A stretch of DNA of 64,000 nucleotides, taken from positions 62,001 to 126,000 of the forward strand of contig NZ_BAEI01000057.1 in assembly GCF_000241325.1 (NCBI RefSeq). Direction: 5' to 3'. This stretch comes from Gordonia polyisoprenivorans NBRC 16320 = JCM 10675. Its GTDB lineage: Bacteria; Actinomycetota; Actinomycetes; Mycobacteriales; Mycobacteriaceae. This document shows, piece by piece, positions 44,898 to 60,954 of the stretch. The first letter of the stretch is position 1. Each line of letters starts with the position of its first letter. The notes beneath the pieces were generated by a model. It had not been told where the DNA came from. It did not search any database and saw only the letters and a program-made list of their open reading frames with translations. The position numbers were made by a program, and so were the translations under genes.

Positions 44898-47800
44898 ATG
44901 AGTGTTGACGACCTGACCATCGAGCTCACCGACACCGATGGCGCCATCCCGATGACCGCAGCACAGCGCGGCATCTACTACGCGCAGCTCCTCGAACCCG
45001 AGGTGCCGATGTCGGTGGCCGCGTTTGCCGAGTTTCACGACGCCGTCGACGCCGATCTGATGTGCCGTGCGGTCGCCGCCACCTCGATCGAGACCGAGTC
45101 CGGTCTGATCACCCTGGTCTCCGCCGAGGGCGATGTGACCGCCGGTGAACCCGGGGACGGTGAACCGCAGGTAAGGGTCGATCACACTCGCACCATCCCG
45201 CTGCACCGCCGCGACTTCTCCGACGCCGACGATCCGCGCGCTGCGGCGTTGGCCTGGATCGACGAGCACCGCTCACAGCCGACCGACCTGTTCTCCGACC
45301 CGCTGCTCGAGACCTACCTGCTCGAACTCGGTCCCCGCCACAGCATCTGGTACTGCTGGGGTCACCATCTGGCATTCGACGGCTACGCGGCGATGTACAT
45401 GATGCTGCGCGTCGCGGCGCATTACACCGCGCTGGCCACCGGCTCCGATGTTCCGCCCGCGCACACAGCGACGATGGCGCAGGTCGCCGAGTTCGACCGC
45501 GATTGGCGTGAGTCACCGAATTTCGCTTCCGCCCTGCGGTATTGGGATTCGCGCCTACACGACGAGTCAGGTGCCCCCGCGGAGATCACCTCGCTGTCCA
45601 CCGGATCTGCGCCGGCCGCGCCGGTGGCGGTGGTCCGCCCGGCAGTCCTCGACGCCGATCTGATCGCCACCATCCGCGCAGTCGCCGAACGTCACCAGGT
45701 GAAGGTGGCGTCAGTCATCACGGCCGCGGTCTCGGCCTACCTCGCCAAGCTCAACAACCGCACCGAGGCGATGACCTCGCTGCCGGTGGCGTGCCGCGAC
45801 AACGACCTGTTGCGCACCTCGGCGGGTCTGACGTCCAACGTGCTCCCGATCCGCGTCGAGCTGACCGCCGACGACGCCCCGCGCAGTATCGGCGATCTCG
45901 TCCGCGCCACCAACGGCGACGTCCGGGCGGCGTTGCGCCATCAGCGTTTCCGCCACGAGGACATCACCGGCCGGGTGCTCGACTCGCCCTCGGGACGGCG
46001 CGGCTTCTTCGGCCCGATGGTCAACGTGATGCTGTTCTTCGAGCATATCGATTTCGCCACTCTCCGAGGCGAATTGAACGTTCTGTCGACCGGACCCGTC
46101 GAAGACGCCTCGATCAACGTCTACGACGGATTCACCGGTGGGATGCGGCTGGATCTCGAGGCGAACCCGAACCTGTACTCCCCCGAGGAAATCGAGACCC
46201 ACCACCGTCGGATCATCGACTTCCTCGAACGGTTCGTCCGGTCCGACGCCGGCCTGCCGATCACCTCACTGCCGCTGCCCGGGATCGACGAGCAGTCGCG
46301 CATCGACGCCGCATCGCACGGCGACCCGGTCGATCTCGGCGACGCCACGGTCCTCGACCTGCTCGACGAGGCGGTCCGCACCCACACCGGGCACACCCGT
46401 TCGGGAGGCACCGCGATCGTCGACGCCACCTCCGGCGACGAACTCGATCTGGCCGACTTCACCGCACGCGCACAACAACTCGCCGACGCACTGACGGCGC
46501 GCGGGATCGGGCCGGAGTCGGTGGTCGGGGTCGCACTGCCACGCAGTGTCGAACAGGTCGTCGCGTTGCACGCGGTGCTGCGGGCCGGTGCCGCATTCCT
46601 GCCGATCGATCCGGCCGAACCGGCCGAGCGACTCGCCCACATCGTCGCCACCGCGGCCCCCACCGCGATCATCGTGGACTCCGACGGACCGGCGCTGCCC
46701 ACAGCCGCGGCCACACTCACCGTGTCCGAATTGTCCACCGCATCCACCGATTCCGGGACCCGCCCGTCGCGTCCGCTGCCCGATCAGCCGGCCTATGTGT
46801 TGTTCACCTCCGGGTCGACCGGCATGCCCAAGGGCGTGACGATCACCCACCGCGCGCTGGTCAACCGCCTGCGTTGGACGCAGGATCGCTACCGCCTCGC
46901 CCCCGGCGACCGGGTGCTGCAGAAGACCCCCGCCACCTTCGACGTGTCGGTGTGGGAGTTCTTCTGGCCGTTCATCTCCGGGTCGGCGCTGGTCGTACCG
47001 ACCCCCGACGGGCATCGCGATCCCTGGTATCTACGTGAGGTCATCGACCGCCACGCGATCACCACCCTGCACTTCGTCCCCTCCATGCTGGCGGCATTCG
47101 CCGAGACCCTCGCCGCCGAGGTCGACAACGCGACCAGCACCCTGCGCGGCCTGCGTCGAATCCTCACCAGCGGCGAAGCGCTGACCCCGGCCACCGTGGC
47201 CGCCACCGCACGCATCACCGACGCACCGATCCACAATCTCTACGGCCCGACCGAGGCCGCGATCGACGTCACCCACCACGACCACTGCCGCGCCGACGAG
47301 ACCGTCACCCCCATCGGCACACCCGTCTGGAACACCGACGCAATCGTCCTTGATCATCGCCTGTGCCCGCAGCCGGTGGGCGCGATCGGCGAACTCTATC
47401 TGGGCGGACCGCAATTGGCCCGGGGATACGCCGCCCGAGCGGACCTGACGGCGTCGCGGTTCATCGCCACCACGGACGGCGGGCGCCTCTACCGCACCGG
47501 TGACCTCGTCCGCCGTCGCACCGACGGCGCCCTGGAATACCTGGGGCGCAGCGACTCCCAGGTCAAGATCCGCGGCCAGCGGGTCGAGCTCGGCGAGATC
47601 GAAACGGTGCTGGCACAGCTCGACGGTGTGTCCTCGGCCGCGGTGGCGTTGCGCGGTGACGTCGTCGACGGTGACGTGGTGCTCGTCGGATACCTGTGCG
47701 GTGATCGCCTCGATTCCCGGGACCTGCGAAGCGAACTCGCGCAACGGCTCCCGGCGCACATGGTGCCCACCACCCTCATGCTGCTCGAGCACATGCCGAC

Positions 47801-60182: not shown

Positions 60183-60954
60183 CACCGCAGTCCTGGTCGA
60201 ACGAAACCTGCTGACCGTCAAACGCATCCCGACCCTGCTGCTCTCGGCGACCGTGCAGCCGTTGATGTTCGTGGTGCTCTTCGCCTATGTCTTCGGCGCC
60301 ACCCTCGGCGGAGCCCCCTACCGGGAGTTCCTGATGGCCGGCATCTTCACCCAGACCGTCGTGTTCAACGCCGCCTTCACCACCGTCGGCCTGGCCGGTG
60401 ACATGTCCGGGGGCATCGTCGATCGCCTCCGGTCGCTGCCGATGTCACGCATCGGGGTGATCGCCGCGCGTGTCGGTTCGGACATGCTGCTCGGCGCCAT
60501 CGGACTCGCGGTCATGGTGGCCAGTGGTCTGGCCATCGGCTGGCGGGTCCGCGGCAGCGCCGGCGACGCGGTGATCGCATTTGCCGTGATCGCCTTGTTC
60601 GCCCTGGCGATGGCCTGGATCGGCGCGGTCAGCGGTTTGGCGGCACCGAATGTGGAAGTGGCCCAGAGCATCGGGTTCCTGTGGATGTTCCCGGTGACGT
60701 TCCTCTCCAGTGCGTTCATCTCCGCACAGAGCCTGCCGGGACCGCTACGCGCGATCGCCGAATGGAATCCGGTGACCGCGGTGGCGACGATGGCACGCGA
60801 GAAGTTCGGCAACAGTGCGCCGCCGGATTTCCCGGCCCCGTCCGGTTGGGTCGCCGACCACGCCCTGGGGTACTCGATCGGGGCGAGCCTGGTGATCCTC
60901 GCGGTGTGCGTGCCGGTGTCGTTGCTGCTCTACCGCCGATCGACGAGTCGGTAA
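60172..60954 (+). CDS. ABC-2 exporter permease, DrrB family
   Basis: 260 aa, about six predicted helices. The ABC-2 motif FLWMFPVTFLSSAFISAQSLPGPLRAIAEWNPVT (around residues 168-200) and the N-terminal RNLLTVKRIP identify the family. The ATG overlaps the ATPase gene by 11 bp. Partner of the preceding ATPase in export of the NRPS peptide or a lipid. Confidence 0.9.
   Translation: MFADTAVLVERNLLTVKRIPTLLLSATVQPLMFVVLFAYVFGATLGGAPYREFLMAGIFTQTVVFNAAFTTVGLAGDMSGGIVDRLRSLPMSRIGVIAARVGSDMLLGAIGLAVMVASGLAIGWRVRGSAGDAVIAFAVIALFALAMAWIGAVSGLAAPNVEVAQSIGFLWMFPVTFLSSAFISAQSLPGPLRAIAEWNPVTAVATMAREKFGNSAPPDFPAPSGWVADHALGYSIGASLVILAVCVPVSLLLYRRSTSR

Follow-up and report, generated by a model that had tools for sequence, protein, structure and literature searches.

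The window analyzed here is the whole stretch of 64,000 nucleotides from Gordonia polyisoprenivorans, bases 62001-126000 of contig C57 (198,929 bases) in the 6.28-Mb genome. It carries one very large gene for a nonribosomal peptide synthetase (NRPS) that begins with a condensation domain, which raises the question of what primes this enzyme, what it would then build, and how widely the locus is kept among related bacteria. The parts of the locus are as follows.

44885..44891, + strand: ribosome-binding site AAGGAGG, 6 bases 5' of the ATG (sequence)
44898..58739, + strand: four-module NRPS of 4613 aa, ATG start, Cs-A-T-C-A-T-C-A-T-C-A-T-TE (ORF, Pfam, motifs)
44943..46292 (approximate limits), + strand: C1, starter-type condensation domain, HHLAFDG at residues 156-162 (motif, sequence match, tree, predicted fold)
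45390..45392, + strand: codon of Ala165, which aligns with the acyl-length gate Arg148 of RzmA-Cs (alignment; role of R148 from PMC7804268)
46410..47852, + strand: A1, code DVWHLSLID, presumably serine (code reading)
47868..48095, + strand: T1, FFDAGGNSL (motif)
48147..49502, + strand: C2, HHIAADG (motif, Pfam)
49545..51047, + strand: A2, code DALFVGAVV (code reading)
51093..51317, + strand: T2, FFELGGNSL (motif)
51393..52757, + strand: C3, HHIAADG (motif)
52815..54362, + strand: A3, code DALFAGCIV (code reading)
54420..54617, + strand: T3, FFGLGGTSL (motif, Pfam)
54693..56057, + strand: C4, HHIAADG (motif)
56085..57677, + strand: A4, code DALFAGVII (code reading)
57693..57917, + strand: T4, FFDLGGNSL (motif)
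58029..58730, + strand: type I thioesterase (TE), GWSLGG (motif, Pfam, solved-structure match)
58802..59056, + strand: MbtH-like protein (PF03621, 95 bits)
59004..60182, + strand: DrrA-type ABC transporter ATPase, start codon uncertain, frame overlapping mbtH (TIGR01188, 307 bits, just below the cut-off of 312)
60172..60954, + strand: DrrB-type ABC-2 permease (PF01061, 92 bits; TIGR01247 weak)

The open reading frame, the Pfam matches (four each of AMP-binding, Condensation and PP-binding, plus one Thioesterase) and the motif order agree on one 4613-residue NRPS of four modules and a TE, as the original prediction had it. HHxxxDG is present in 4/4 condensation domains and GG(N/T)SL in 4/4 T domains, and the TE carries GWSLGG. 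The dual C/E motif HHxxxxxGD is absent from the NRPS, and its PF00668 stretches number four, all assigned to condensation domains; there being no fifth condensation-like stretch, the protein has no epimerization domain. The MbtH protein and DrrAB exporter that had been proposed to follow the NRPS were found downstream of it on the same strand, with matches to PF03621, TIGR01188 (just under the cut-off) and PF01061; with the drrB model the permease scores 56 bits against a cut-off of 223, a weak match. Upstream and divergent lie rplN, rplX and rplE (gene names assigned by eye). Downstream of drrB, at 60989-62663, there are an anti-sigma gene and a sigK-like gene, the latter scoring 223 bits against a cut-off of 226; in 6 of 36 loci (L028, L030-L034) sigK is on the opposite strand and farther off.

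The codes agree with the earlier reading of a serine-first enzyme with three DALF adenylation domains. DVWHLSLID of A1 is what we take to be a serine code, and from it serine is predicted as the first residue. A2, A3 and A4 do share DALF; on the other hand, the suggestion that they load identical residues found no support: each has its own conserved code, and their pairwise identity is 48-52%. As read from the codes, the three pockets look hydrophobic. A code DALFIGGTFK is listed as predicted valine (PMC3547906); it differs from the A2 code at four positions and is a hint only for the choice of residue. Within the open-licence literature no paper carrying the A2-A4 codes as strings was found. 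Naming of substrates from solved A domains was also tried, and the best match, LgrA, was ascribed to general relatedness and left unused. The closest solved match of the TE is 7crn, 'Non-ribosomal peptide synthetase 4' (146 bits, versus 68 for EntF), an entry for which no paper naming it was found in the same literature.

C1 is N-terminal with no A-T ahead of it, and motifs, sequence matches, tree and predicted fold all assign it to the starter subtype. Compared in sequence with solved structures it scores 139 bits with RzmA-Cs, 126 with ObiF1, 125 with C1 of CDA and 90 with EntF. A tree of 163 domains was built from 160 of 269 extracted domains plus three references, with orthologue C2-C4 and domains shorter than 281 residues dropped (the entry labeled C1 of L048 is actually the C2 of that locus). 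In this tree C1 lies within a starter clade of 65 together with RzmA-Cs, CDA C1, ObiF1 and EntF (support 0.94), and away from C2-C4 of the same protein, with which it shares 29-31% identity. The phylogeny thereby refines the earlier view that the N-terminal domain needs a starter group. The tree mixes acyl and aryl starters, EntF pairing with RzmA and ObiF1 with CDA; ObiF1, EntF and MxcG are aryl-primed. An AlphaFold model of C1 had a mean pLDDT of 88.8 with a 34-sequence alignment; 13 of the 46 loci do not figure in that alignment (L031, L047, L048, L051, L054, L056, L058, L060, L110, L111, L112, L115 and L118). When the PDB was searched with this model in Foldseek, chains of CDA C1 or RzmA-Cs made up 17 of the first 18 matches, and the fit to C8-CoA-bound RzmA was 2.4 Å (TM 0.87). 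ObiF1 ranked 11 (TM 0.87, 2.9 Å), EntF 24 and VibH 30.

In RzmA-Cs the residue at position 148 gates chain length, Arg going with C2, Met with C6 (CDA) and Ala with C8 (HolA); exchange of R148 for Ala or Gly moves the product from C2 to C8-C10, and in the R148G background Y138A or Q36G gives further lengthening (PMC7804268). By RzmA numbering, position 148 is Ala in 35/36 Gordonia C1 domains (Thr in L062) and position 138 is Gly in 34/36 (Ala in L050, Cys in L061), both counts omitting L048, whose C1 is in another frame. Ala is found at 148 also in L109-L111 and L113-L117; EntF has Phe there and ObiF1 Leu. The mapping of position 36 falls in a gapped alignment region and was not relied on. Ala occupies position 148 in starter-C paralogues near aryl ligases too (L076, L077, L091, L092), and the gate alone therefore does not decide between acyl and aryl. 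Where the original prediction had left an acyl or an aryl starter open, fold, matches and gate together favor the former, and at the level of sequence and model C1 appears better read as fatty-acyl than as aryl accepting. Because starter condensation domains can take acyl-CoA directly (PMC7804268), a locus without a ligase need not be incomplete. In the window, AMP-binding matches at E ≤ 1e-5 occur at only the four NRPS-internal places, in keeping with the claim that no starter ligase is present, and at the same threshold no adenylating ligase outside NRPS frames was found on the whole contig.

We consider it probable that the locus encodes a lineage-conserved N-acyl-Ser-X-X-X lipotetrapeptide synthetase of Gordonia and Williamsia with its own exporter. 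By homology, C1 would take a fatty acyl group of medium to long chain, the simplest source being the acyl-CoA pool without a dedicated ligase, and would join it to the serine loaded by A1 onto T1. A2, A3 and A4 would load three hydrophobic L residues while C2-C4 elongate; all three are expected to be L because the enzyme has neither an epimerization domain nor a dual C/E motif. MbtH would support the A domains, the TE would free acyl-Ser-X-X-X as the free acid or as a lactone via the serine hydroxyl, and the putative function of DrrAB would be export of the acyl-tetrapeptide.

The lineage-wide conservation of the NRPS locus is new here and goes beyond what had been seen from the window. C1 was found at a minimum of 45% identity in 37 of 59 Gordonia genomes, the next best matches being at most 39% identical, and at E ≤ 1e-95 in 44 of 401 sampled genomes of the family, belonging to 3 of 31 genera. 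Carriers beyond Gordonia are 8 of 9 genomes of the Williamsia group and one Jongsikchunia (L117). Among 18 named loci encoding a C1 relative, 14 are from Gordonia; in stretches reaching up to 10 kb upstream, rplN is present in 12 of the 18, lying about 4.3 kb away in the Williamsia-group loci L015, L016 and L018, and is not present in the other six (L006 of Jongsikchunia and L009-L013). A further 36 Gordonia loci were fetched besides the window, and rplN was present within the roughly 2 kb upstream in 27/36 of them. Downstream of the NRPS, mbtH was found in 33/36 and drrB in 34/36 Gordonia loci (L045 is cut by its contig and the 17-kb gene of L061 leaves little downstream), and both genes in 9/9 of the Williamsia and Jongsikchunia loci L109-L117. 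The locus L018 is on a record titled Kitasatospora arboriphila (NZ_JNYV01000004.1) with a Williamsia-like locus, and this record is probably mislabelled or contaminated.

Module order recurs in 41 of 41 full-length orthologues, and so do the codes, with DVWH-S-L-D in A1 and DALF in A2-A4; this count left out 6 of 47 sequences (L045, L048, L061, L062, L112 and L118) on account of a cut contig, a frame break or deviating architecture. The A2 code is DALFVGAVV in 34 orthologues, that is in 34/34 of those from Gordonia and Jongsikchunia, and DALFIGAVA in 7; A4 has DALFAGVII in 25 and DALFAGVVI in 16, and A3 has nine variants, varying at 299, 322 and 330. Divergence to the nearest orthologue is 0.053, 0.026 and 0.174 at codon positions 1, 2 and 3, and the third position was the most diverged in six of six orthologues measured, which points to purifying selection. 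Most simply, the locus would be an old one, inherited in place and lost or moved in some species.

Several relatives deviate. In L057, L058 and L060 Asn replaces the first His of the C2 motif (NHIAADG), and a frame break in L048 (G056) puts C1 in an 853-codon frame separate from the remaining NRPS. L061 (G032) is a five-module relative of 5649 codons with a Ser and four DALF codes; the 1.9 kb fetched on its upstream side is free of rpl genes. L062 (G017), from a single draft genome, has a module 2 without almost exactly its A domain, so that C and T follow directly; its TE continues in frame into DrrA with no intervening stop codon, which may mean that TE and DrrA are fused, and no mbtH was found. 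Jongsikchunia has a second, diverged copy (L118, G069:C50), whose C1 is 54% identical and occupies a frame of its own; drrA- and drrB-like genes lie upstream, on the opposite strand.

The fatty-acyl reading has to be weighed against an aryl-capped (salicyl or 2,3-dihydroxybenzoyl) Ser-X-X-X siderophore, for which an aryl ligase and a carrier encoded elsewhere would prime C1 as in EntF. The serine-first, EntF-like first module suits such a product, ObiF1 is about equal to the acyl starters in closeness to C1, and contig C60 of the genome carries at 56-59 kb, next to other NRPS frames, a dhbA-like gene and adjacent to it a gene like an aryl-AMP ligase (610 bits, cut-off 724); at 87 kb C60 also has an isochorismate-synthase-like frame (219 bits, cut-off 225). 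A TIGR02275-like aryl ligase (E ≤ 1e-110) is present in 57/59 Gordonia genomes including 37/37 of those bearing the NRPS, which would allow for salicylate from elsewhere in the genome. No aryl gene, however, is linked to the NRPS on C57, and a dhbA-like gene (TIGR04316, E ≤ 1e-50), found in 32/59 genomes, had no match in 21/37 NRPS-bearing ones. This argues against a general 2,3-dihydroxybenzoyl (DHB) starter, unless a diverged dhbA was missed, and a DHB starter for the whole family was rejected as unlikely. Co-occurrence is if anything negative, with 16/37 genomes with the NRPS versus 16/22 without it (Fisher p 0.03, relatedness not corrected). None of the 59 Gordonia genomes scored above the cut-off of TIGR02275 or TIGR04316. 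The NRPS itself matched a general NRPS/PKS model first in NCBIfam, followed by MxcG (NF038078, 1702 against a cut-off of 2300) and EntF (NF007605, 1651 against 2400), both below cut-off. Iron regulation was likewise rejected. With what we take to be the IdeR-like iron-box consensus, the window had no match at up to 3 mismatches (expected 0.00), and at up to 4 mismatches there was none at any of 36 loci, over 84,373 bases upstream of and 600 into the NRPS frame. The same pattern gave 14 matches in 9 of 28 other stretches, including the C60 region of this genome, and none in the stretch own57 that holds the window; among 20 permuted palindromes run on the other stretches as a control, nineteen gave 0 matches and one gave 1. 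Overall we regard an aryl siderophore as rather unlikely.

It is quite improbable, in our judgment, that the substrate of C1 is a hydroxy acid or an acyl-CoA as short as C2-C6, and that the product is accordingly a small acyl-peptide instead of a surfactant-like lipopeptide. Starter domains of the clade do span C2 (RzmA) to C8 (HolA) (PMC7804268), and position 143 of C1 is Phe or Tyr, bulkier than the Met of RzmA; set against this, small residues such as its Gly138 and Ala148 go with longer chains in the RzmA mutants of the same study. That C1 is a relic unused for priming, the enzyme starting from free Ser or being acylated in trans, would accord with the lack of a linked starter gene. We hold it to be highly improbable, as the 36 C1 domains examined all retain HHxxxDG (the C1 of L048 being in another frame), with H143, H144, D148 and G149 (domain numbering) invariant across 34 aligned sequences.

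Other NRPS loci deserve mention. On the minus strand of the same contig, outside the window (C57:131810-194214, about 62 kb, L087-L090), there are three neighboring NRPS frames of 2786, 13481 and 4647 codons. The first opens with a starter-C domain, and the one of 13481 codons contains 11 A-core motifs and 10 T motifs but lacks a TE motif. In L065, L069, L071, L077 and L080, starter-C NRPSs have IdeR-like boxes about 300 bases or less upstream of C1, and L069, L071 and L080 carry DALFIGAVM and Ser codes; these five loci are candidate iron-regulated siderophores with a starter C.

Among known systems, the starter domains of RzmA (rhizomide) and CdaPS1 (CDA) are nearest to C1 in sequence and predicted structure, being alike in fold and HHxxxDG; they are only 24-27% identical and have Arg or Met at the gate, whereas the Gordonia NRPS has an Ala gate, serine first and four modules. 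EntF and MxcG, which make the aryl-Ser compounds enterobactin and myxochelin, share the C-A(Ser)-T first module and the MbtH partner; unlike them, the Gordonia NRPS has three more modules and no linked DHB genes, and scores below the curated cut-offs. Putative C-starter lipopeptide clusters with products not known have been described in the related genus Rhodococcus (PMC5550956) and also have an N-terminal C-starter. Among the matches listed from a plasmid collection of 371 records, the best plasmid-borne ones from Rhodococcus are 33-34% identical to C1, and nothing at 60% identity or above was found in that collection. The mycobacterial glycopeptidolipid (GPL) core made by Mps1/Mps2 is acyl-D-Phe-D-alloThr-D-Ala-alaninol, and is likewise a four-residue lipopeptide of a mycolic-acid bacterium. 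The Gordonia NRPS differs in having serine first, no epimerization domain and a TE at its end; identity with the GPL synthetase was rejected, as the epimerization domain is lacking and A1 has a serine rather than a Phe code. A biosurfactant link from the literature was also dropped, since the single Gordonia case considered is a glycolipid (PMC9009618).

No description of this NRPS locus or its product was found in the open-licence literature. Most of 326 gene cluster families of Gordonia, all types counted, are singletons (PMC9680422). The NRPS retains its codes, its exporter and in many cases its position across most species examined and in a second genus, and is therefore likely to be useful to the bacteria; it is also a tractable single-gene target toward its product. 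More tentatively, we can see as possible a clade-wide, iron-independent lipotetrapeptide whose locus is ancestral and adjoins the ribosomal spc operon, exported by DrrAB and either located at the cell surface or surface-active. If true, it would be a lipid typical of the Gordonia/Williamsia lineage that has so far been without a chemical description.
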